Assembly (NCBI GenBank): GCA_018985225.1
Contig: JADGIF010000001.1
Location: forward strand, 1-64,000
Direction: 5' to 3'
Length of the DNA stretch: 64,000 bases
From: Amoeboradix gromovi
Taxonomy: Eukaryota; Sanchytriomycota; Sanchytriomycetes; Sanchytriales; Sanchytriaceae
Positions 22,898-63,695 of the stretch are shown here, piece after piece (the first letter of the stretch is position 1; every line of letters starts with the position of its first letter). A program made the translations under genes and the position numbers. The notes under the pieces were generated by a model. That model was given only the letters and a program-made list of their open reading frames with translations. It was not told where the DNA came from and did no database searches.

Positions 22898-23662
22898 ATG
22901 GAAGAAATACATCTAAGATGCAACAACATGAATTGTAGGAAAAAATTGCAGGCTTCAGCATATGTTACAGCATGTTCACATATATTTTGTGTTTCTTGTT
23001 CCAACAAAGCGTTTACTGAGCAATTGCTTTGTCCTGTTTGCCAAAGCGCATTAACTGGTAAATTTGACATACAACAGATGGATTTAGTACCTAATGAGAC
23101 ATACAAAAGTCAAATACTTGCTGGTCTATCACCTGAAATCGTTCAGGATATCTGTTTTCGTTCAATAAGCATGTATATGTACCAGGTCTCTCAAGAAATC
23201 CAACTTCAAGAAATAATGTACAAGCAACTTCTGCAGAAATACAAGACTGAGAGAGCCAAGATTCAAAGCAGAGAACAAAATAACGCGCAAGTGGTAAATG
23301 ATTTAAAAAGGAGATTGCAGTCTTACGAAAAGCAACACGACAGCGACAAAGTTGCCATCACAGAAATACAACAACAACTAAACCAAAAGACTAGGATTTG
23401 CCAAAAGCTTCAGCATATGTATGACATGAACAAAAAACAGTCGCAGCAGATACATACAAAGCAGGAAAATATTGCTAGCAGTAGAAATACCCACTCCAGA
23501 TCTCCAAATGAAGCGAAGAAGTCTTTGTTTAAGTTCAACTCCTTTTCCAGCAGGTTTTCGAATAACTCGGCTGAAAACATGTCGGTTGCTAGCTCTGCCA
23601 AATCTCCGATTGATATCCTCCACACACCACGGCATATTTCCCCTTCCAGTAGTTTTTCTTAA
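22898..23662 (+). CDS. HEI10: HEI10/CCNB1IP1-like RING protein, meiotic crossover factor
   Basis: RING-type E3 ligase of the Zip3/HEI10 family, which designates crossovers during meiosis. An N-terminal RING (CNNMNCRKKL, TACSHIFC, CPVCQSALTGKFD) is followed by the family stretch LAGLSPEIVQDICFRS. A long coiled coil (about residues 100-195) and a Ser-rich tail follow. Start chosen at the ATG at 22898 directly before the RING; the upstream in-frame codons are antisense to the acyltransferase. With HOP2 at 60184 it indicates a working sexual cycle. Confidence 0.86.
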   Translation: MEEIHLRCNNMNCRKKLQASAYVTACSHIFCVSCSNKAFTEQLLCPVCQSALTGKFDIQQMDLVPNETYKSQILAGLSPEIVQDICFRSISMYMYQVSQEIQLQEIMYKQLLQKYKTERAKIQSREQNNAQVVNDLKRRLQSYEKQHDSDKVAITEIQQQLNQKTRICQKLQHMYDMNKKQSQQIHTKQENIASSRNTHSRSPNEAKKSLFKFNSFSSRFSNNSAENMSVASSAKSPIDILHTPRHISPSSSFS

Positions 23663-23789
23663 TCTAGGAATATCATTGCCATTTAAAAAAAAGTCTTTAA
23701 TAAACTCTTAATCTTTGACTATTACAGTTCCTTTCTCTTCATTATTCTGCTGCTTTCTTTTTTGCCAAGTTCCCTGAAACAGTATAACC

Positions 23790-24924
23790 ATGGAATCTTC
23801 ATCTCAGCACGATATTCAATCAAATATTGAAGACAGCCCTCCTAACCCCTCACCTATTCTAGCGGAAAAGACGATCAAAATCCCACTAAAGAATGTTGGT
23901 ATTGATACCTACCCGAGCCAGTTACAATCAAAACTGAAGTTGCGCGGATTTAATTTTAATATTATGGTTGTTGGGAGTTCAGGCTTAGGCAAAACTACGT
24001 TTATTAACTCATTGTTTAACTCCAATTTAGTTAAACACGAATCGCATTTGGACGAAAGTGGTACCACTCAAATAAAAATACACAATTTTACGTTGACTGA
24101 GAATGGCATCAACATGCATCTAAATCTTATCGACACTCCCGGATTTGGTCTTGGAATAAACAATGAAAATGCAATGGAAAATATCTTAAAATACATTAAA
24201 GAACAATACACTTTGTACCTACGACGCGAACTCACTGCTGCCCGTGAAAAGTTCATTCTAGATACTCGTGTTCATGCAATTTTATATTTTATATCACCCT
24301 CAGGGCATTCTTTGAAGCCACTAGATATTCTAGCACTGAAGTTGTTGGGAGATATCTGTAATGTTATACCTGTCATTGCAAAATCTGATGCTTTAACCGG
24401 TGATGAAAGAATTGCATTCAAAAAGCGAGTTCAAGAGGAATTCCAATTTCATGGTATACGATTATATCCATATGACAGCGATCCTTATCATATTGATAAA
24501 GACAAGTCGCGCTTGGAGGACGAAGACTTGCAAAAGATATTGGAGGATCAAGTAACTTTAAATCAGAAATATCGGGATTTGATGCCTTTCGCTATAATCG
24601 GCAGCGAGCTTTTAGTACCTATTGACGGGAAAGAAGGATCAAAGATGGTCCGTGGTAGAAAGACATATTGGGGTGGTGTAATTAATATAGAGGACCCAAA
24701 TCATTGCGAATTTACACAGTTGAAGAAGTTCTTATTACAGTATTTCTAACTAATGTAGAACCAATTTGCACGATTTGATTGAAACTACGGCCCTTTATCA
24801 TTATGAATTCTTTAGAACTCGTCAACTATTGGCATTGAAAGAGAGTAGAGAGCAGCATCAAGGTCCACGATCATCTGCCAATATTTCAAGGGCAGAGCTA
24901 GCGCAAAAGAAGGCAATACAATAA
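23790..24924 (+). CDS. Septin GTPase
   Basis: Filament-forming GTP-binding protein of the cell cortex. P-loop GSSGLGKT (residues 62-69), DTPGFG switch II, AKSD guanine-specificity motif and the septin-unique element (VRGRKTYWGGVINIEDPNHC) are all present. A 19-nt intron at 24740-24758 separates KKFLLQ from TNLHDLIETTALYHYE, which resembles the usual septin C-terminal block. The reading frame then ends at 24924. The C-terminal tail is short and charged, without an obvious long coiled coil. Which septin group it belongs to is not resolved. Confidence 0.94.
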
Positions 24925-24989: not shown

Positions 24990-26261
24990 ATGAGTTTCTT
25001 TTTTTCTCTATTATTCTCAAAGCAGCTGCTGTTTGGTTATGATTCTATATCAAACTTTAAACCAGCCATGGTTATACATTCAGCTTCAAAAACGAGCACA
25101 GTACTGCAAACTACGAATCTGAATCAATTTAAGTTCACTGAAAAAGATATCGTATATGCATTAGATGAAGAGCCTGTAATAACCCCAATAAAATTTACTA
25201 CTTTTGATGACAAAATAATACCTGATTATACGGACAAAAACACGATAATTGGAATGGCAAAGATGTCCTGGAAAGCGTATTACGAACCAAAGAATTCTAG
25301 TGAACTGGGATGGGGGTGGTCTTCACCAGGACTAAGAGGATACGTGTTTGTACCTAGTTGGATAGCCACTGATAATGACTTAGATGATTTGCCAATCTAT
25401 ACAGATGTGGAAGATATAATTATATCTATTAAGGGTACCTCGTTTTCGCTGACCGGTGGTGGAAAAGAGCAGGATTTAGATAAAAGAAGTGACAATTTAC
25501 TTTTCAGTTGCTGTTGTGCACATGTAGATGTAACCTGGAAGGATATTTGTGACTGCGCTAGCCCTGGCAAAATATGCGATGAAGCCTGCATTCATAAAGA
25601 AGTAATGGGATGCTCATCTCCCGGGTGCTCTTGTCCTTTGGGCACCTGTACTAGAACTTACTACGACTCGGCCAAGGATATCTTAGATATCGTTAAAGTA
25701 AAGTTTCCAAATGCCCGAATTCATACCACCGGACACTCCTTGGGTGGGGCTATGGCTAGCATAATGCTCAACATGATATACGCAGATCCTACTACAAATT
25801 CAAGGGGAGGAGGTTCATTTACCTATGAATCACCTGGCCAGAGACTGGCAATTCATAGGTTAGGCATACTCTTCCCTTCTCCAATATTCAATTTTGGAAA
25901 TAACGCAGACCCTGTGTATACTGGAGAGTGTAATGGAAGAACTAGCAGTTGCTACTTTTTTGGGTAGTTTTATTTTTAATTCAGGTATGCGATGGAAACA
26001 AAATGCCATGCGGGATATGTATGCGAGTATCTAACCAGAAATGCCGGGCCACCCGAAGAAACAGAAGTAGAGGCAGAGGAATCCCTTGCGTACTCTGAGG
26101 ATCTGCCATTTTACTCAAAAGATGTGGAGGCCAAATGGAGGTTGAGCATTATTCATCATAGAATCATTCCAGTAATTAAGAACGTGCTGGAGAAATACCC
26201 CGTCCCTATTTGTGTTCAGCCTATAAACTGTACCGACTGTCCAGATTGGCAGTTCAAATAA
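24990..26261 (+). CDS. ATG15: ATG15 autophagic-body phospholipase
   Basis: Vacuolar lipase that lyses autophagic bodies. It has a short N-terminal hydrophobic stretch (FFFSLLF), a cysteine-rich central part, the lipase nucleophile box TGHSLGGA, and the Atg15-specific FGNNADPVYTGECNG followed by GYAMETKCH. The latter is rebuilt by removing a 21-nt intron at 25964-25984. An acidic loop and three more cysteines precede the stop at 26261. Length, about 417 residues, is close to yeast Atg15. Right after it lies a family A relic. Confidence 0.9.
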
Positions 26262-26378: not shown

Positions 26379-26959
26379 GTTATAAACAGCTTGACTATTT
26401 TCTTGAATAAATCATTTATCGCGAATTTGTATGCATTTTTGTATAATTTCAAGACCTTTCCAGATTTTCCTAATAGCTTAAATACTCGATATTCTTCCTT
26501 TTCACAAATGGTAAATCAATTCTAAATAAATAACTAGCAGGTACAGCATACATTCGTCAACACTGAGGAACTGGTCCAAGCATGGAAGAATTAAATGACT
26601 TTCAATGCCTATTAGAGATTTCTGTACAATTTATTCAAGGAACGCTTGAGGTTCAAGTGTAACCAAAGAGGAAAGACGATGGTTGAATGTAATGAATCAT
26701 CTACTAGTCAGACATGTACAAGGTATGGCACTCTAAAGAAAACCAACTTAGAAACTTACACCTATACAAAGTGTCTTGAGAAGATAGATAGAGACCATAT
26801 GGCAACAAGGAACATACACATCAAGTATATGCATCACTATTCAATCCAGCCTCAGTGTAGTGAAGGTGTGAGCAATCACTGTAACGGAGCATCTAGCGCT
26901 GCTAGTTTCTCTGTAGAAATTCTCGATTTTCTCTGAAATCAGGACTTTTAACGAGGAGT
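26379..26959 (+). mobile_element. Family A Fanzor2/TnpB-like element, copy 2
   Basis: Shares the leader (TTGACTATTTTCTTGAATAA and on) and the 3' end (CTTTTAACGAGGAGT) with copy 1. The coding remnant (26646-26936) keeps GKTMVECNESSTSQTCTRYG and KIDRDHMATRNI, but one cysteine of each zinc pair is lost (CTRYG, YTKCL), so it cannot encode a working zinc ribbon. A central segment differs from copy 1. The right end lies 57 bp upstream of QCR8. Confidence 0.6.
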
Positions 26960-30844: not shown

Positions 30845-32771
30845 ATGCTGGTTCCATTATTCGGTCAGGTGGCTTTTATGTCAACTCCAAACTCCGATTT
30901 AGAAAAAGGAATTCTTCCAAATGGTATAGCAAATCCCTCTGAGGACATTCGGGTATCACGATCTTCATCTACTATGCTGAATGAAGAGAAAGTGGACGCT
31001 GTGAAAGGCAGAAAGAGTCACAAAAAGCATTTCATTCTTTGGTACCACAAGCATTCAAACATTCTACTAATATTAACGTTTTTATTGGCTCCTGGATTGT
31101 ATGTTCTATTTACTGGATTCAACGAGAGCAATTCAACTGATGGGATAGACGTTATAACATGGACAATAGCCATTTCCATTAGTTTCGGAAGCTATTTGAT
31201 TGTATTCTATCTCTTCAGATTTTTTGTAAGGTTTGCCAGAGATAATCTGATAAGGTCGGAAGACTATAACAGGGTTGCCAGAATCCAAAATTTAATGCCC
31301 TACATAAAAGGTGTGATACTATCGTTTTGCGCATTCCTTGTTTTTACCTTTTACATTCAGCCAAAATCCATAAACAAGGACTCCATTGTTCAAAAAATTC
31401 TCTTGGGAGTATTTATAAGCGTCGTCATAATTTGCGCCCACAAATGGTCAATGATTGAGTTTTCTGCCTCATATAAAAAAATTCTTTATGGCGACAGACT
31501 AAAATCTGTGAATGCTAACACAACAGCCATAACGTATCTGCTGGAAGTGCAGCATGATAGAATAGAAGCAACAAGAAAACTGGAGCAAAATCTAAATCGT
31601 CAGTCCAGAAACAGAAAAGGAAGTGGTCAAGGAATTGTAGACACAATTAAGGAAGTACACATGAGAACGAAAACGTGGAAAGATTCATTAAGTGGGTCCA
31701 AGTCCAACACTATATCTTTTAAAGACTCGCCCATTCACACCCCTGCTTTTGCAATCAGTCCTACTAGACAAGTATACCCTGTGATGAAGAATAAACTGAA
31801 ATTCAAATCTGCAGAAGAAGCAAGAAAGGTTGCACTTGCTCTTTTTGACTATCTAAAGAAACCTTCAAGAGATTACTTGATCCCAGAAGATTTGTTCTTA
31901 TTAATTGAAAATAAGGAAAAAATAGATTCCATATTTAAAGTGTTCGATGTGAACGGAGACGGTAGCATAACTCGAAGAGAACTCCGGCAGAGGTTTGTGC
32001 TAATATATGAAGAGTTCTGGAGGCTTAATAGCTCCATGTCTACAGCAGATTACGCATTAAGGCAGCTAGACACGATCACATTAATAATAGTTCTAGTAAT
32101 CATCTGCTTCAGCTGGCTGATAGTTTTTAATTATAACATACAAAGTTTACTTATTATAATGTCTTCTACGGTCTTGGGGTACGTATTTGTGATCGGAAAT
32201 TCGGCTAAAAACCTTTTCGAGTGTTTGGTATTTGTATTTATCACACAGTATATGTTTCTAATGTAGCCCTTACGATTGTGGTGATAGAGTTTTAATTGAG
32301 GAAGACAGCTACTTTGTTAAAGACATATTTATCTTGACTACAGTGTTTACCAAGGGCGATGGCACTATAACTTATATACCAAACAGCTGGCTATCACAGA
32401 GGCCTATATTTAACTTTAGAAGATCTCAAAACATGTGGGACTGCGTCTCAATTGTTGTCTTGTACTCGATTGATGATCGATTGCTACAGCAGCTTTGCGA
32501 AAAAATGGATCAGTACTTCAGAGGAAATACTGTAGATTTTACTGGACCCAATGGAATTGATTATGCTAATATACTTGACAATCATAGAATAGATTTAAAA
32601 TTTTGGTATGAATGTAGAGGAAATTGGCAAAATACTGGTCTAAAGGGACAGAGACGCATGAGGGCTTTCAATAGAATTCGTGAGGTTGCTAAAGAACTAG
32701 GAATAACATATACACCATTGGCCCAGAACTTCAATGTACTAAAGCCACCGACATTTGATTTTGGTAAATAA
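30845..32771 (+). CDS. MscS-type mechanosensitive channel with EF hand (Msy1/Msy2 type)
   Basis: Fungal internal-membrane stretch-activated channel that adjusts calcium and volume under osmotic shock. It has four to five hydrophobic segments, an EF hand with the loop DVNGDGSITRRE, then the pore helix and MscS beta domain (VTHPYD-like motif, here THPYDCGDRV, and IPNSWL). A 19-nt intron at 32248-32266 lies exactly within this motif and must be removed to continue into the second part. The C-terminal alpha/beta domain ends at 32771. An alternative start is the ATG at 30878. Confidence 0.9.
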
Positions 32772-48006: not shown

Positions 48007-48596
48007 ATGGCTCAAGAACAACCGAGGTATGTAAAGGTAGAGGACTTGCCAAAACCATTTAATCAATGGCAATCCATCCAAACGGTTAAACATGTTGAGC
48101 AACATCTTCTGTCTGAGATACCAGAATCTAGTGTTGCTGTGGTTATTAATCATCTCCAAAATCTGTTAAACATGAGCCAAAAGCAAGAGTCTTATGTGGT
48201 ATCTACCCTTAGCGAATTGATGGAGAAAAAGAGGGAGCTGGAAAAGGACATCGAAGTGATAAATGATCTGAAAATTCAAAAACCTTTGAAAACCAAATTT
48301 CAGCTGGCCGATTCTTTATATGCTGACGCGACAGTGGAACCTATTCAAAATGTTAATATTTGGTTAAGTAATACTCTTTTAGTGGAATATCCATTAGATG
48401 AAGCAATTGAGATGTTGAAACAGAGACAAGACGAAGTCGAGAAAAAGCGTAAAACGGCCCAAGACCAACGAAAACTATTGAAAAAATACATAACAACGAT
48501 TCAAGTCAGTATTTTTTTACTAATTTAGCTGTGTCGCGAGTATATAACTTACATGTTAAGCCAAAAGGCACCGCTTCCGCATCCAAAAACAATTAA
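48007..48596 (+). CDS. PAC10: Prefoldin subunit 3
   Basis: Alpha-type subunit of the prefoldin chaperone that delivers nascent actin and tubulin to CCT. Two long coiled coils flank the family core: KTKFQLADSLYADATVEP, NVNIWLSNTLLVEYPLDEAIEML. A 20-nt intron at 48509-48528 separates TTIQV from TVSRVYNLHVKPK, restoring the usual ARVYNWDV-like C-terminus. The start is the ATG at 48007 (MAQEQPRYV). About 190 residues, normal for the family. Confidence 0.9.
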
Positions 48597-49157: not shown

Positions 49158-49456
49158 GGGACACCAAATATAAAACTAGACCAAGTCGTCTTTAAAGTAG
49201 GTACTCCATAAGGAGGAAATACTATTATTAATAAGAGTCCTTCTTTCAAACCAATTTTCTTTCATTAATGTCATTCCCCTCTTTAAAATAAAACAAGATG
49301 ACCCACTATCTCTTATATATAAGATCTCTGAGTGTCTAAGAAAAAGGTGCAACCAATCTGATTAATTTAATGTAATTTGCTATCGGTTAACACACACTTG
49401 ATATAATGATTCAAACTGTATCAGAAAGTTAGTCTAGTTTTTATATTTAATGTCCC
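49158..49456 (-). mobile_element. Family B inverted-repeat element, copy 4 (299 bp)
   Basis: Ends GGGACACCAAATATAAAACT and the complement of GGGACATTAAATATAAAAAC. Both arms match copy 1 (16124-16569) closely, but the middle about 150 bp is deleted, joining AAAAAGGTGCA directly to the right arm. This is a secondary internal deletion derivative. It lies 34 bp upstream of the LYRM7 start codon. Confidence 0.65.
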
Positions 49457-51513: not shown

Positions 51514-52185
51514 GCTCTCTTTCAAGTTTAGATCTCCCAAAATCAACAATTTGCATAGAGAAACTGACAGACTTGGATGCTAACGATAAGAAAGTATGAC
51601 GATTTGTTAAACAATTAGACGGCTACGGAAAATGGCTTATTGGGAAAATAAAGTTCTTGTAATCACTGCAGATGATCCATTTAACTAAATCGATTATTAT
51701 AGCATCCTACTGGTGCAGCAAACAACATGAAATAAACTCATTATTAGTATCTCAAGTAACAATGTATACTAATGCATTGTATCTTCCCTTCCTGGAGCAG
51801 GTTTTGAACAGTTGGGAAGATGTTCTGTATCTACTAGCACTTTTTTCAGATTCAGCATACTCTGTTTGTGGTAATTTTGAGCCATTTGCAATTGATGAAA
51901 GAAAAATTATCGAGTCTCGTAAATTTAGCAAATTCTGGGAAAACGCATATTAGAGCGATAACTCATGTAATCAAGATAAATGGCTTATGCGATTCAAATA
52001 GAAAGCTGCACCTGGGAAACAATTAAGAACTATGAGTTATTCATTACTTGTCAATTTATTCTTAAATACATGATTTGCATGGAGAATCCTTTGGTGTCAA
52101 CATACATTCACTCTTGTGTTCTAGCTTTTCCATATCTTTTCGTGAAATAGGAATCTTTTGTACATGTACCCTAAATTAATGCTTT
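51514..52185. other. Spacer with unrecognised open stretches
   Basis: No recognised gene. An open frame at 51672-51953 (ATG, 93 residues, contains LEQVLNSWEDVLYLLALF) and pieces before it (KLTDLDANDKK, RFVKQLDGYGKW, each ended by stops) suggest a decaying gene. Another frame starts with an ATG near 51631 and ends after 18 codons. None matches a family I know. Confidence 0.3.
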
Positions 52186-53104
52186 TTACCACTCAGGATC
52201 TTTCGGATCGAACACATAGTTTTCAGGAATATGTTGGGACATCAGGATGTCATCAAGAATTTCAATAATGTCCTCTAATATCTGAGGAGGATATCCAGTA
52301 ATCTTCTTCACGTAATCGTCTACATAAGCTACAATTACCATCATTAAACATGTACATAAAGATCCCAGCTGCGGTTTTTGAAAAGGGAATTCTTCTGGTA
52401 TTTGGGTGCAACGACAAAATATCAAGCAAAAAGAATGCCCGTGATAAGGTATCCATATCTGGTAAATAATGAACATGATATGGGTCCATACCTTTTCTAA
52501 TTTCAAAAAATTTGCTTATATTTGTGGGGTTCTTGTTATCAAATAAGGATGGAGTTCTCAATACCGCCATTCTAAGATAGAGTGTTAGCCATTCATTTGG
52601 CGTAAAAAGATTCATTCGATATCCCATTGAGCTAAGAATTCGTCGCTCTAGGACATGTATATCGTTTGGGTTTGTATTGAACAGCTTTAAAATATTACTA
52701 AATGATGGCATGTGATCTTCATCAAATTTTATGGCAATCCAAGTGCAAGTAGCCAAAAAAGTGTCATTTATTTCAAAACTCTTATGTGATCTTAAGTAAA
52801 TGAACCAGGCGCGCCAAACGGTGGATCTTTCTAGTTGACAGAGTGCCATTTTCTTGAACCATGGATAAAACAAGCGATCCTCACATTCTTGAAAGAGATG
52901 GATATTGTTAGACTCTGTCAGTATCATTTGATGTTGTATATCAAATAGTAAATAGTAGAAGTTTGCTGCATGTGGGCAGCTACAAGGACAAATTCTGCTC
53001 ACTACTGGTCTTGCAAAGGAACAGTTGCTCAGCGATTTAAAGGGTATATTCTCTTTATCTTCAATTAGTAAAATCGAAGATGGTTGATTGCGAACAACAG
53101 TCAT
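52186..53104 (-). CDS. Cyclin
   Basis: Contains a cyclin box: ERSTVWRAWFIYLRSHKSFE, FLATCTWIAIKFDEDHMPSF and VLERRILSSMGYRMNLFTPNEWL. The N-terminus includes KENIP, a possible APC/C KEN-type signal. A 19-nt intron at 52320-52338 joins MFNDD to DYVKKITGYPPQILEDI, completing a second cyclin fold that ends at 52186. The type (A/B-like or G1) is not settled. About 299 residues. Confidence 0.8.
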
Positions 53105-53377: not shown

Positions 53378-55589
53378 TTACAGCAGATTTACAAGCTCTT
53401 TAGTATATTTGGCTATTTCGTAGCTTGAGGAGGCTAGTTTTTGCTTGAGTTGCCTGACTGTTTCGGATGTTGCACCCTCTTTCGTGAAAGCAGATACCAC
53501 ATCGTCCGCCAGTTTACTCAGTTCTACATTACTCTTTTGCAAATCTCCAACAATTCCTTTTGATCCTGTCTTTATCTGCTCATACCCTGGACTTCTAACA
53601 ATAACATCTTCACATACACTGCACAAATTGTTGACCACTACTGATATGTCAGTTACAGTCTTCCTAAAGTCTTTACCAAACGTGCCAGTTCTCATCTGAG
53701 ACAGCAGTTGCTGTATGTTCATAACAATTACATCTGTCTGTTTTTCTAAAAATGCCTAAATTAATCGATGTTACTTTTAAATCACTGGAGGACATACTGG
53801 AAAGTGGTGCGTTTTTTATAGGACTAGTATCTGGTGTGTTATGCATTATATCTTGAAGTTTCTTTAACGGGATATTTTCATCATCTTTCAGCGATTTAAA
53901 TTTCACAATCTTCAGGATGTTTATTATTACAATTGTTAGTTCTAAACATCCTTTATCTATTTCTTCGGAACTACCCTTGACGGAACCTTTGGCTAGCCCA
54001 GTAGCATGATTCTTTGCGGCACTCATCAAAAGTGTTAAACTTGCTGATAACTGTCCTTTAAGTGTTGACAATGCGTCTCTGTGTTCGTTAGATGCTTCAG
54101 CTTCAAATTTTTCAACATCATTTGTTATATTCTTACAGGCTATTACAATTGCCTTCATGCTCACCAATATATCTGAAGGAACGCCTGACTTTTGTGAGTC
54201 CAGCAGCGTATCTACGGAGTTCTGGTAAGCACCTAATCTACTTGGGTCCACTCCACCACTTTTAGAAGGTGTGACATCCTCGATGGTAACGTTTTCCAGT
54301 ATCTGCGACACAACTGTGGTTTTACGCTGTATATCCCATGGAAGTTGGCTCATATCAACGGTTGCACGCGCATTTGGTTTGCCTATCTTTTCGGATTTTA
54401 ATACCACAGGCTTCTCTGGTTTAATGGGCGACTTGAGTTTATTTTCTTGTTTTTCAGGAAATTTCTCATTCTCAGTGTTAATTGAAATAGGAACACTGCC
54501 TTTTTCATTAGAATCTACCACCTTGTTCCTTAGATCATTGAGTTCTAGGCGTAACTTATCATTATCTACTTTAAGTTTGCTGTTTTGAGAAGTTACTTGT
54601 TCAAGCGCTTTTTGATTCTCGCTGCTAATAAACTCCATGTTCTTAATTACCTTGTTTCTTTCGGTTAATTCAAATTCTCTAGAAGTCAGTTTTTGCTCAA
54701 TCGTAAATTTGAGGGATTTTTCTTTTTCTAAGAGCTCCTTGGATCTTTCTAGTTCTTTCTCTACTACACCTTTCCTAGTGCTAAAGGATTCTAGGTCCGA
54801 CTTAACTCGCTGCAACTCAATTGAAGCGGTATTCAGTTCCTTCTGACACAACTGAAGCTTAGACCTCTCTTTTTCGAAGTCACCCTCTAATAATTTATAC
54901 TTCTTTTCAAGCATTTCTTTTTCTTTTCTAATTTTAGCAAGATCTTCGGACTTAGGAAGACTCTCCAATGAGTTGCTTGCCTCTGTATTTTTGTTATAAG
55001 ATTTGTTTGGAGAATCGTTGTTTTGAGTTACCAAATCACCCAAATCCTTCATTAGCGAATCAAGACTGGCAAAATTCAGGTCATTGGATCCAGCCTGGTT
55101 TTTTAAATTGTTTCCTCCAGTATTTAGATTGGTACGCTGAGGACCTGCAATCGGGTTTGAGTTTTGTGATTCAACATTAGCGTTATTTTGTTTCGTTGCA
55201 ACTTCAGATATAGCAGATTCATTTTGTACAAGCTGGGGAAAGCGGCGTTCCAGTTCTATAATAACATCGATTACCAAATCTTTGAATCTTTTCTCTGGTA
55301 GAGTAGCTAATTTTTGGCGAGCTTGATTTCTTTTAGGATGATAATCACTCCTAACTTGCAAGAATGGAATATTCTCGGAAGAAATTCGACGTTTTAATTC
55401 ATCATGGATATCAGTTGCTAATTCTCCAAACTGGTTTTCAGACAGAAGAGTCAATTTTTGCCTGGCATTGGTACGGGTGGATGGGTCAATTTTTTCGCCC
55501 AAATATGAGCTAAACACTCTATGATATTCCACTGGGTCCATAAAATAGTGGAAACTATGTTTTAAAGTCTCAAAATTTATGAAAATCAT
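53378..55589 (-). CDS. SPA2: SPA2-like polarisome scaffold with SHD1 repeats
   Basis: Fungal polarity scaffold. Two tandem Spa2-homology repeats (NARQKLTLLSENQFGELATD and NQARQKLATLPEKRFKDLVID) are followed by an Asn-rich linker and a long coiled coil (about residues 205-365). A helical C-terminal domain comes after, resembling the SHD/GIT C-terminal region. A 19-nt intron at 53756-53774 joins SSDLK to AFLEKQTDVIVMNIQQLL, extending the C-terminus to 53378. Start may be the ATG at 55589 or the one at 55541 (MDPVEYHRV). Confidence 0.82.
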
Positions 55590-57850: not shown

Positions 57851-59477
57851 TCAAGTAGAATTTATTGAATCTTCTGCAATTTGCATCACAATCTTTTGTA
57901 AATCAGCGTCCCTTATGTTGTAGAGCTTGTCTACCAACGATACTCCATCATCTACACTGGTTCCATGGTAATTACTCAGTCCTTGCTGTACAATCAAAAT
58001 TCCGATTTTAGTCAAGAATTCAATCGTTTCGCTCTGGTCTTTGCAATTAACTATCAGAGCATCCCATACTATATACACTTGTCTAAATGGAAGCACATCT
58101 GTATTAGTTATTTAAATTACGACTAAAGGCGGTAAGGAACCATGGAACTGTGATAACATCCGTTTGAAGGTCCAATTCCAACAATCTAGGTATCTTTTCA
58201 GTTATAGTAACTTGGCACTGCTTTAATATATCTGGAAACTGGCTACTGCCTTTTGTAAATAGACCAGAAAGTCGAGTAGAGATAAAAGTAGAGAAGCAAT
58301 GGTATGCAATGGATTCATCGTTCAAGAATATAGAAAGGAAAGTAGCAGCTATGCTATCCATTCCTTGCCAGTATTCCAAGTGTGGGTGCTGACTTGACCA
58401 AGTTTCCAGAATTCTACGCAACATCTGCTTACCTGAGTCACTACTAAGCACAGGATGGTAGGAGTGGCATCTTGGTACATCTAGTGCTATTTGAGCAGAG
58501 GTTTCCTGATCAATTATTTTCAGACTACTTAAATAATGTTGGTGGACGCTATTCGGAGTATCAAATAATGACTGATACACATCGGCACGGACCCAGTTTG
58601 GAATAATGCAGTGCATATTTGATAGATCAGACAGACTGGCTAGTATTTTGCATCCATCGATGAACGATTGAGACGATTTGTATTGATCAAAGTTGGATTC
58701 AATATCAAACTTAAGTACACTCAGAGGAGGCTTACCTGATGGAATTGACCACTGAATATTGTTTGAAATATAGTCGGGCTCTATGGAAAAGAGATTCGGT
58801 TGTTTATTCTTTTTAATATTTCCAAACTGCATTGCCCATTTAAGAAAATGATATTCCGATATATTTGAATAAAACAAATCTTTATTGGAAAGAGGTAGAA
58901 TGTGACAGTCTTCTAGAATTACGTCTGTTTGCTTAAGTGCATCTTTTATGTTTTTGTTATTCAACAGCGTCTTTAGCGCATGGTAGATTGGTGAATCACT
59001 TGGAATATCTTGTAATTGTACATTACACGCAGATAATATATCATTAGCAAAATTGGCAAGGTAGTCTTGCGATTTAACTAACGGAAGGTTGTCAACATTG
59101 TGCTGAACTAAAGAGTAGAACCAATTTTCAAGCAGTAGTTCGTTACCTGATATTCTCAAATTTGCATATAACGGATTAATGTTCTCATTGGTTAGATACA
59201 CAAGTACTTTTACCAGCTGTACTAGCAGGTCTTTAAGGTCATGTGTATCTGAAGCTTTTTTATTCTCATCATTTAAACAGCCGATTATTAAGAGGTTATC
59301 TTTAAAAGAACAACCGTATTGCACTAAGCTACCATGGCTTACTTGAGAAAATAAATTTAAGCACATAATGTAAGCGTTAGCATTTCCATAAACTGGTTGA
59401 AATTCTAACATGTTTGAAAAAAATGTTAGATATTGAGTTTGCAAACATACCATATCACAGCCATGTATGTTGCACAT
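57851..59477 (-). CDS. TBCK-like TBC-domain protein
   Basis: Homologue of TBCK, which links Rab GTPase regulation to growth control and cilia. The TBC domain has DVPRCHSYHPVLSSDSGKQM, LEYWQGMDSIAATFLSIFLN and VPWFLTAFS. A 22-nt intron at 58100-58121 joins TAFS to HVLPFRQVYIVWDA, matching human FTHVFPLHKIFHLWD, and the frame ends at 57851. The first 200 residues are probably a degenerate pseudokinase; the C-terminal rhodanese domain seems absent. It starts 71 bp from CFAP20, divergently. Confidence 0.8.
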
Positions 59478-59548: not shown

Positions 59549-60182
59549 ATGTTTGCAAATACATTTCAGTCTGGCTTTTTGTCAATTTTATACTCAATTG
59601 GCTCGAAGCCATTAGGGATTTGGGACGATCACCATGTTAAGAATGGATACATTAAAAGAATTACAGATGATGATATCCAGAGCTCAGTTGTTGAAGTTAT
59701 TGGGGCAAACACTTCTACTACCTATATTACTTGTCCAAAAAACGAAAAAGAAACTCTGGGAATCAAATTGCCTTATTTAGTGCTAATTGTGAAAAATATG
59801 AACAAGTCTTTCTCCTTTGAAGTTGCTGTAGTTTTAGCTAATTTAGATCAAGGATGATCAAAATGTTAGAAGACGATTTTTGGCCTCCAACTACACCTCC
59901 AAGACCAAAGTGAGTCCATTTGTAACTACTATGCCAGTAAGACTAGATCCAGGATGGAACCAAATTCAATTCAACCTTGCAGATTTTTGTAAACGAGCCT
60001 ATGGAACTAATTACATTGAAGCTTCAAGGGTGAGTATCCACGCAAACACTAGAATTCGAAGAGTGTATTTTAGCGAGCGACTGTATAGCGAAGAAGAGTT
60101 ACCAACTGAATACAAATTATTCTTACCTTTAAGTCAAAGGAAAGAAAGCGACAAGAAAAATGTCTTAGAGTTGAAAAAGTAA
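59549..60182 (+). CDS. CFAP20: CFAP20/Bug22 axonemal inner-junction protein
   Basis: Small beta-sandwich protein of the ciliary doublet inner junction. [56 protein letters not shown] and [17 protein letters not shown] follow the highly conserved family sequence. A 19-nt intron at 59828-59846 joins FEVA to [16 protein letters not shown]. About 204 residues from the ATG at 59549. One of the strongest indicators of a flagellated life stage. Confidence 0.95.
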
Positions 60183-60868: not shown

Positions 60869-63695
60869 ATGAGCTTATCGGAATTGTTGCTGCAAACTCT
60901 CAACCCTTCAACTCAAAAGAACGCAACATCCTCTTTGTTTCTTCTGGTGGAATCACAGCCAGCTACACTGATGTCATTGTGCGATCTTGTGATATCAAAT
61001 GACAAGGTGGTTTCTCATACAAGTGCAGTTTTTCTAAAGAATTCGATTGCCAAGCATTATCATAAAAGTGAATACATGGATGTGAATAGCCGAAATGTTC
61101 TCAAACAAAGATTGCTTGATCTCTTGATACATCCGTTGTGTTCTAAAATAGTAAGACAGCAAATTAGTGTTTCCATCTCTAGCGTAGCTGATACAGATAG
61201 CTGGACTGATCTACCTAGTATTCTAGGCTCTACTCTAACAAGCTCCAGCTTGGAAACTCAGTTATTATGTTTAGAAACTATTTATTTGTATGTCACAGTT
61301 TGGAAGAAGTATGACTTGTCCGCTAATGTCGTACTGGATATTCAGCATTCATGCAACACTTTCTTTGTTCCCTTGTTTCTTCCATATATTGAGAATTGCT
61401 TTTCCAGTTTACCCAGCAATCGGGAAGTTGAACAGTATGATATACAATTTCAGTTATTTCTGATCATATCCAAGATATTCAAGTGCTTTATTATTCATGA
61501 TATTCCTCAGCAGTTAGAGCCCCATATTCCTCGACTAAGCAGTATTTTATGTTTTTTTATTAGGTTCAACAATCCCCAATACAAACAGCATGAACAGAAC
61601 CTACTGCATGAGTCCACGAAACTAACTAAATTAAGAGGTTCTATTCTAGATACTATCCATCTACTATTATCTAAATACCTCGATGATGTCGCTGATATCA
61701 AAAGCACTTTAATAACTGCAGTTTGGGATTTAGTTATTGAATATTCATTTACGGTCGAAGAATCCTTAAATTCTACCAACTTAACTACTTCTACTAGGGA
61801 TGTTATGATATCCAAAGCTTTGCAAGTGATTTGCGTCTGTATAATCCATAATATTAATAACGAGATATTTCTAGGCAACGGAAATGTAGAATCAGTTGAT
61901 TTTCTAGTAAACAAGGTTATAATTGGTAATATTTTAGTCCGGAGAGAGGATCTGGAGCTCTTCGAGGATGATCCACTCAGTTATGCATTTAGAGAGTTGC
62001 ACGGAACCGAATCTAGCAGCATTAACAAGTCAACAAATGATCTTGTTAGCGCTTTGTTAAAGTTCTCTCCACTAGGCTCTTCTATAATATCATCATGCAT
62101 TAGATATATTGATTTGTTTATCAAGTCATTCAACAGTAACGATCCCAACAGCTGGAAGTATAAATCAACAGCTACTCGTATTATATGCTGTTTGAACCAA
62201 CCAGACGTTTGCACCCAGTACATAATTAACCATGTGCTACCTGATTTAAATGCGTCCTCCACTATGCCCTTGTTGTTAAGCGATGCTATTTATTGTATCA
62301 CTCATTTTAAAAACCTGCTTGGTAGTGAAATAGAAAGTATATTGACTAAATTAGTAGAAATCCTACATGTCCAGTCCATGAGTAGCCAGCTTAATACAGT
62401 TGTCTGTACTTTTAGTTGCAATGCTATTTCTCTGCTACTTTCCAAATCAACAGCATTTGATCACTCTTTACTGTTAACTAGTGTATTTAGAATATTGAGC
62501 AACCAGACAGGGGTGTACAAGTCAGAAAATGAATATTACCTAAAGGTGGTCGTAAAAGCGATTTTAACAATGCCAAGTGTTGAATTACAGAACAAAAGTA
62601 ATGTGTTGTTAAATGAGCTAATATCTATACTAGAGATAGTAGGACAAAACCCAATTAACCCAAAATTTAACCACTATTTGTTTGAATGTATAGGGATGGT
62701 ACTAAGACAATCTAGCTTAAACAACCCGTCAATTAGTAGCCAATACGATGAGGAGCTGGTGCCTATGTTTGGGAATATATTGAGAATGGATATTAGTGAA
62801 TACAGCCCGTATATATTCCAAATATTGACAATAATGTGTAACACAGCAAATACTCCAAATTTGGATATATTGATGCCAACCTTGGTGAAACCGAACGTGT
62901 GGGAAAGCAATGGAAACATCAAGTCACTTGTAGTACTGTTTAGCATGTATATGGTACACCATCAAGAGAAATTAAAAGAGATTGTGCTCCCATTGCTTGG
63001 CGTGTTTCAAAAATTAATACAATCAAAGCAAACTAGTAGAGAGGGAATGAAATTGTTACAATCCATGTACCACTACAACTTGATATCGCCAGAGTATACA
63101 AACACGATTTTTAATGTATTATTGACCCGATTGAACCAAAACAAGCAATTCGGAATAGATTTCACCAACTTTGCTTGTTATTTGTCTTCTAACAATAACT
63201 TTGGAGCAGACTATTTCATTAACTGTTTAGAAAGTATACAGCAAGGGTACTTATTATTAATCTAGGATTACTAGCGGAATCTTGAAAAATGTAATGATAG
63301 TTAGTAGCAAAGAGATCCTAGGAGTAACTAATCGAAAGCTGTGTATTGTAGGGTTAGGGAATATAGCGATGTGTAACTATGTTATTCAAGGACCGTTAGA
63401 GCTTCTAGTAGAGTTGATAGATGGGATTATAACTCTTACACAAACAGTATCAACTTATACTGCGAAACCCAAAGATTTTGTAGAGCTAGACGATGAAGTT
63501 GAAGATGAAAAAGACTACGGCGCCACTTTCGTACAACTGAAGTCAGCAGTTACTGTGGTAATGGATCCAGTAAGTGAAATAAAGAATACAAAAGAGTATA
63601 CTATGGATTTGATGAAGAAGATATATGGAGTAAATGCTGATGTATTTAATAAGATTCAGTCACCAGGCAGTGTAGCGTTTTTAAGGGAAATGTAG
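60869..63695 (+). CDS. CSE1: Exportin-2/CSE1, importin-alpha re-export receptor
   Basis: HEAT-repeat karyopherin that returns importin alpha to the cytoplasm with RanGTP. The start MSLSELLLQTLNPSTQ and AVFLKNSIAKHY, LFEDDPLSYAFRE (family: FEDDPxEYIRRD), KYKSTATRIICCL and GMKLLQSMYHYN are CSE1-like. A 19-nt intron at 63247-63265 joins IQQG to ITSGILKNVMIVSSK; the frame continues through CIVGLGN to 63695. About 935 residues. Start at the ATG at 60869; earlier in-frame codons are antisense to HOP2. Confidence 0.9.

Follow-up and report, generated by a model that had tools for sequence, protein, structure and literature searches.

A stretch of 64,000 nucleotides (nt) at the start of contig JADGIF010000001.1, referred to here as the window, contains protein-coding genes interrupted by strings of 19–22 nt. 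These strings are very probably U2-type spliceosomal GT-AG introns, in which a nine-nucleotide element, YTNAYNHAG, is predicted to serve jointly as branch site and acceptor. We infer their removal by splicing from the reading frames and protein homologies that it restores. An earlier reading of the bare sequence, the original prediction, had listed twelve such introns and described them as ultrashort, most often of 19 nt, and close to the known lower limits. This core description is supported, and the lengths equal those of nucleomorph introns.

Introns of the window

All twelve listed introns were found as GT-AG strings when both strands were read, and every one begins with GTA. Eleven lie exactly where they had been placed; the twelfth, given as 58100-58121, was off by one, the true GT..AG string being 58099-58120 (22 nt). 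The lengths were as listed, with eight introns of 19 nt, one of 20 nt, two of 21 nt and one of 22 nt. Four of the twelve (272-290, 52320-52338, 53756-53774 and 58099-58120) are on the minus strand. The claim that twelve were all that could be detected proved slightly low, as two further introns (23649-23667 and 52171-52189) were recognized by frame and motif. The introns of the window are the following:

272-290, minus strand: 19-nt intron, eIF4A-like DEAD-box helicase gene; Helicase_C (252-360) runs across junction 351.7, and HRIGRSGR is restored
3947-3967, plus strand: 21-nt intron, CDP-diacylglycerol synthase-like gene; CTP_transf_1 (61-376) runs across junction 352
14331-14349, plus strand: 19-nt intron, IFT52 gene; Itf52_C (348-393) runs across junction 360
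23649-23667, plus strand: 19-nt intron beyond the original list, 3' end region of a RING-finger gene; motif and frame only, 963 nt open before and 39 nt after
24740-24758, plus strand: 19-nt intron, septin gene; Septin (56-351) runs across junction 320.7
25964-25984, plus strand: 21-nt intron, class 3 lipase-like gene; motif and frame join, the Lipase_3 match stopping short of the junction
32248-32266, plus strand: 19-nt intron, MscS/EF-hand channel gene; MS_channel_2nd (455-520) runs across junction 467.7
48509-48528, plus strand: 20-nt intron, prefoldin subunit gene; Prefoldin (58-174) runs across junction 167 (trimmed protein)
52171-52189, minus strand: 19-nt intron beyond the original list, second in the gene of 52320-52338; frame join and motif
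52320-52338, minus strand: 19-nt intron, gene without Pfam match; frame join only
53756-53774, minus strand: 19-nt intron, GIT/Spa2-like gene; GIT_SHD and VBS before junction 613, GIT1_C (615-737) after
58099-58120, minus strand: 22-nt intron, RabGAP/TBC gene; RabGAP-TBC (296-488) runs across junction 452 (trimmed protein)
59828-59846, plus strand: 19-nt intron, CFAP20 gene; 313 bits to a 6u42 chain, gapless across junction 93
63247-63265, plus strand: 19-nt intron, CSE1 (importin-alpha re-exporter) gene; 213 bits to 1wa5, match 27-945 across junction 818

For each of the twelve listed introns, splicing joins an upstream open run of 315 to 2459 nt to an open frame of 66-504 nt, in one phase each. 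When the intron is retained, a stop codon is met within 3-99 nt in every case. The spliced proteins were built by script and then scanned for domains and homologues. The junction falls inside a single Pfam domain in eight genes (Helicase_C, CTP_transf_1, Itf52_C, Septin, MS_channel_2nd, Prefoldin, RabGAP-TBC and CFA20). Spliced CFAP20 aligns with a solved structure over 189 residues without a gap at the junction, and the alignment of spliced CSE1 with the solved CSE1 structure likewise includes the junction. The GIT/Spa2-like gene is bridged by domain order, with GIT1_C following the junction directly. The statement that conserved motifs on either side fix the introns is correct for ten of the twelve; the lipase intron and that of the gene at 52320-52338, which by eye we take to be cyclin-like, are placed by frame and motif only.

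Homology-placed introns and intron anatomy

Introns were also sought without use of the motif, in protein kinase genes. Every pair of Pkinase profile matches abutting in the profile and lying in different frames, as judged by eye, was taken; same-frame neighbours (taken as domain insertions), C296 (three in-frame stops) and partial matches without a partner were left out. All ten pairs resolved to an intron of 19 nt (L081, L085, L086, L087, L089, L090) or 20 nt (L082, L083, L084, L088). The L087 gene contains an additional, second 19-nt intron, bringing the kinase total to 11, all of 19-20 nt. The kinase motifs restored by splicing include HRDIKPEN, TDFG, APEV and SPEV. A kinase reading frame of the window, 8996-9709 (plus strand), was considered as the site of a longer intron and rejected; its frame is broken at an A-run near 9675, which suggests gene decay or an error in the sequence.

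Together with the ten window genes and the gene for splicing factor SF1, the kinases give 22 homology-placed introns, 15 of 19 nt, five of 20, one of 21 and one of 22. In all 22, a putative branch A is followed by exactly five further intron nucleotides, which would unite branch site and acceptor in a single nine-nucleotide element, YTNAYNHAG. In 21 of them examined base by base, GT is invariant (21/21) and AG nearly so (20/21, one GG); position -8 is always T and -6 always A (21/21, the A also in the 22nd), -5 holds T or C, a pyrimidine stands at -9 in 20/21, and T at -3 in 20/21. The variation in length is confined to the region between the GTA donor and this element. That branch point and acceptor nearly merge, as had been proposed, is thus borne out in the sequence, in a fixed register and both inside and outside the window. 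The distance of 5 nt is counted from the branch A to the last acceptor base, as in work on yeast Prp18; by the count apparently used in PMC2483917 it is 4 nt.

The donor consists of GTA followed mostly by A or T, T and T (GTAWTT). The middle of the introns is rich in T (45 of 94 bases), which places any pyrimidine tract upstream of the branch site. G at position +5 is found in one of 21 homology-placed introns and in one of the 37 frame joins described below. The YTNAY motif is complementary to GUAGUA of U2 small nuclear RNA (snRNA), as in U2-type introns. U12-type (minor) introns have a strict /ATATCCTT or /GTATCCTT donor and a TTCCTTRAY branch site; this type was rejected in view of the GTAWTT donor and of YTNAY at a fixed place.

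Nature of the organism

The assembly comprises 6,779,989 bases (6.78 Mb). IFT52 and CFAP20 in the window, together with a tubulin-tyrosine ligase also in the genome, indicate a flagellate, and a Hop2-like meiotic gene is present in the genome. The original prediction spoke of a fungus. This is likely through KCH, which matches the Pfam family "Fungal potassium channel" with 148 bits; the attribution involves few genes, as the GIT_SHD/Spa2-type protein and the septin fit Fungi but are not exclusive to them. Animals too have GIT-type proteins and septins. The flagellar genes would also suit some other small flagellate outside the Fungi, in which case the introns would stand and only their attribution to a fungus would fail; given the KCH match, this is regarded as unlikely. 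Paramicrosporidium saccamoebae has 7.3 Mb and a G+C content of 47% (PMC5701793), compared with 35.8% in the window.

Length distribution outside the window

A genome-wide length distribution had been suggested as a check. Lengths were counted in a pool of 290,778 nt of non-overlapping DNA from the assembly, about 4% of it, made up of 94,000 nt from the contig that holds the window and of pieces of other loci. The loci were picked by kinase, DEAD-box, RRM and splicing-factor searches, and the pool is therefore not a random sample. Strings GTA..YTNAYNHAG were counted when they joined at least 150 nt and at least 30 nt of open frame and when the frame was stopped if they were retained. The pool gave 37 joins at 19-22 nt (19, 8, 9 and 1 at the successive lengths), one at 12-16 nt, none at 17, 18 and 23-30 nt, and two at 31-40 nt. 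The ultrashort class thus extends outside the window, with 19 nt the commonest length. In the range of 19-22 nt, seven control patterns with an altered donor, acceptor or branch motif gave totals of 1, 0, 2, 0, 1, 0 and 3, and chance could thus explain a few of the 37 joins; an eighth, T[CT]NA.., whose motif overlaps the true one, gave 19. Without the branch motif, GTA..TAG joins numbered 13 at 19 nt, 3 at 20 nt, 7 at 21 nt and 0 at 22 nt, whereas trinucleotide controls gave 0-2 at each length. Scoring of joins by codon bias was tried and abandoned as too weak to tell signal from chance, and the open-frame criteria were used instead.

A catalogue of 50 introns was compiled from the 37 pool joins (of which a few are perhaps chance), the introns at 52320-52338 and 53756-53774, which fail the join filter, and the 11 kinase introns. 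It contains 28 introns of 19 nt, 12 of 20, nine of 21 and one of 22.

The frame-join and domain-gap tests could have missed a sizeable class of longer introns of the ordinary kind, in which case the restriction to ultrashort introns would be an effect of detection. The power of the frame-join test falls above about 40 nt, and longer introns are there neither demonstrated nor excluded by it. At 41-60 nt the true pattern gave 14 joins, compared with 15, 19 and 27 for altered-donor controls; at 61-100 nt it gave 43, compared with 41, 43 and 44, and beyond 100 nt, up to 400 nt, it was lower than these controls. The 14 joins at 41-60 nt do exceed the 4, 5, 10 and 11 of the altered-acceptor and altered-branch controls, which have another base content and of which two of four lack an end able to act as a stop. 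The selective coverage of the genome, and the partial kinase matches without partner, which fall outside the kinase test, also leave room for such a class. As all ten kinase pairs and the second junction in one of these genes resolved to 19-20 nt, and as motif joins of 41-400 nt do not rise above the altered-donor controls, it is judged unlikely.

Further introns of 19-21 nt are indicated by motif and frame on the window's contig outside the window, at 65659-65678, 72095-72113 and 91532-91552 (minus) of C111. Within the window, the motif scan found identical strings far apart, 16171-16189 with 49204-49222 (minus) and 16878-16900 with 26522-26544 (minus), which suggests dispersed repeats.

Introns tend to sit toward the 3' ends of genes: in the window, 13 of 14 are found in the last 30% of the coding length. 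In the pool, 15 joins were near gene 3' ends and two near 5' ends; controls for 3'-end joins gave 0-4, apart from an AGT control, which overlaps the true donor and gave 10. The 15 include at least one artefact of a piece end, in L070. In intron-poor yeasts, introns are biased to the 5' end, the opposite of the bias seen here.

Splicing machinery

Inspection of U2 snRNA, SF1 and U2AF for loss or change had been recommended. The genome gave a single match for U2 snRNA (102 bits), with GUAGUA kept, and a single match for U6 snRNA (65 bits), with ACAGAGA kept. SF1 is a clear orthologue: although its HH domain is weak (20 bits), the match of the spliced product to Splicing factor 1 in 7vpx reaches 147 bits over the KH domain and zinc knuckle. 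U2AF65 is present, with 167 bits to TIGR01642, under the strict cut-off of 310 for this model; RRM2 is clear, RRM1 is a partial match and the C-terminal UHM matches U2AF65 structures weakly. As all four are present, the loss that had been raised for U2, SF1 or U2AF is not supported. The SF1 gene (L070, C18) itself carries a 19-nt intron inside the KH domain, where the homologue bridges the junction without a gap, so that the supply of SF1 would depend on the splicing of ultrashort introns.

Several observations weigh against the splicing interpretation. Looser controls defined by dinucleotides also peak at 19 nt (GA..AG 10 and GT..AC 5, compared with 20 for GT..AG), and plain GT..AG at 19 nt gave 38, compared with 12-32 for six control end pairs (GA..AG 32). 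As this plain peak is only modest, it is the branch motif that does the separating. Motif and length together also occur in uninterrupted long frames (164,025 nt), 13 times in the sense direction and 12 times in antisense; motif and length can therefore not be the whole splicing signal, and no avoidance of decoy introns was seen in these sense coding frames. Among the kinase introns, that of L086 has GG in place of AG as acceptor, and one donor in L087 is GTT. U1 snRNA was not found in the genome (best Rfam U1 match 11.5 bits, E 5.3; loop pattern 6 matches, compared with 11 in the control), which leaves the recognition of the donor unexplained. The genome search for Slu7 gave no candidate, a weak negative, as its 14 control genomes, all silent, were prokaryotes and the assembly may be incomplete; Prp18 was not searched.

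A U1 candidate (C213, L095) was rejected. It forms a hairpin that bears the loop, but its folding is not superior to that of shuffled sequences (z -0.43), Rfam gave no match for it up to E 10, and its pairing with the donors, a mean of 4.5 Watson-Crick pairs, does not surpass the 4.9 of canonical U1. In L086 (C57, around 15006-15024, minus strand), the 19-nt GT..GG string TTAACTTGG alone restores the protein; this would reflect an acceptor other than AG, an erroneous base or a gene in decay. The near-absence of G at +5 coexists with a canonical U6 ACAGAGA.

The scarcity of +5 G, the failure to find U1 and Slu7 and the near-constant length would also be expected if the strings were removed by a much altered spliceosome, or by some other excision of fixed-length cassettes at the RNA or DNA level, instead of by standard U2-type splicing. 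This is held to be very unlikely, given the GT-AG ends, the branch motif complementary to U2 and in register, and the presence of U2, U6, SF1 and U2AF65; we know of no precedent for DNA excision with such ends. Insertions from sequencing or assembly, or pseudogene frame breaks such as that of the window kinase at its A-run, are extremely unlikely as mimics of introns, as errors would not produce GTA..YTNAYNHAG ends and lengths of 19-22 nt and restore ten conserved families.

Discussion

Under the favoured interpretation, U2-type introns would have been shortened until branch site and acceptor shared nine bases, presumably through genome compaction in a small zoosporic fungus. The lariat of a 19-nt intron would have a loop of 14 nt and a tail of 5 nt. 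The YTNAYNHAG element would be recognized by SF1 and then by the U2 small nuclear ribonucleoprotein with its intact GUAGUA. Without a pyrimidine tract between branch point and AG, U2AF65 may either rely on its protein contacts or act on the T-rich stretch that precedes the branch point. In humans, SPF45 replaces U2AF at some short introns whose tracts are truncated (PMC8363638), which may be an alternative for this genome. Because +5 G is nearly absent although U6 keeps ACAGAGA, the donor would be read through GTA and the T-rich bases.

Exon ligation may proceed without the spacing ruler formed by Slu7 and Prp18. In yeast, both proteins are reported to be dispensable when the branch point is close to the 3' splice site; the shortest natural distance between branch point and acceptor is 10 nt there, and in the absence of Prp18 sites as close as 7 nt come into greater use (PMC10711555). 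A distance of 5 nt would leave the ruler no room, which agrees with the outcome of the Slu7 search and with the ciliate Stentor coeruleus, for which SLU7 and PRP18 are reported as not detected (PMC9505925).

The introns of Stentor are alike in their near-fixed length, A+U-richness and 5-nt tail after the branch A (PMC9505925). They are shorter (15-16 nt), with the branch A at position 10-11, a loop of 10-11 nt and, as described there, no strong branch consensus; here the introns have 19-22 nt and the A is at position 14 or later. The chlorarachniophyte nucleomorphs of Bigelowiella natans and Lotharella oceanica have GT-AG, A+T-rich introns of 18-24 nt with a mode at 19 nt; the share of 19-nt introns is 68.8% and 49.1% (PMC4035089), compared with 28 of 50 in the present catalogue. 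No obvious branch motif is reported for nucleomorph introns (PMC6461891), whereas YTNAY is strict here. Intron density is also far below that of nucleomorphs, with 14 introns found in 64 kb.

Trichomonas, Giardia and Yarrowia are described as having a branch motif whose distance from AG is fixed, and no 3' pyrimidine tract; the spacing is 4 nt in Trichomonas and Giardia and apparently equals that found here (PMC2483917). The merged spacing called striking in the original prediction was, to judge from that source, already known; its combination with such a total length is unusual. Trichomonas introns run from 23 nt (shortest) to 196 nt (longest) (PMC12316389), unlike the 19-22 nt found here, so total length is not locked in that organism. 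A nucleomorph is a relict endosymbiont nucleus, of 373 kb in B. natans, whereas the present assembly of 6.78 Mb has flagellar and meiotic genes.

Microsporidia are without flagella, whereas flagellar genes are kept here, and the TAAYTT motif of Encephalitozoon cuniculi lies close to the acceptor. Its presence in 13 of 13 accepted introns (PMC2483917) is a likeness; microsporidia are described as nearly or wholly intronless (PMC8476143), unlike the present genome with its many introns. In Cryptococcus neoformans, introns below 60 nt are termed "ultra-short" and a bin of 20-40 nt is used, so that single fungal introns of such size have been reported; the average is 56 nt (PMC11913375), compared with a population of 19-22 nt here. 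The open-licence literature, mostly at the level of abstracts, yielded no fungus with a 19-22-nt intron population, which is not a proof of novelty. Ultrashort spliceosomal introns as such are known; what appears new is that a strict, anchored branch site occurs together with a length of 19-22 nt in what is likely a fungal nucleus.

A wider proposal is that a whole intron population in a fungal nucleus has been locked at 19-22 nt by fusion of branch site and acceptor, with the Slu7-Prp18 ruler and the +5 G contact dropped and SF1 and U2AF65 kept. This would be a third independent arrival at the physical floor of splicing, after nucleomorphs and Stentor. We put it forward tentatively, as a possibility that is on balance doubtful.

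The human spliceosomal A complex is reported to cover 79-125 nt of RNA (PMC8363638), and introns of 19 nt therefore raise the question of how so short a string accommodates recognition and both catalytic steps. The likely branch point is directly legible in the sequence here, which is not so in nucleomorphs, and the genome has recognizable U2, U6, SF1 and U2AF65. It thereby becomes possible to test whether a branch-to-acceptor distance of 5 nt renders Slu7 and Prp18 unnecessary, and by what means a donor lacking +5 G is recognized. For annotation, gene finders set to the usual minimum intron length would be expected to split or truncate genes in such genomes. With introns near the smallest known, this organism would be well suited to probing the minimum space that splicing requires.

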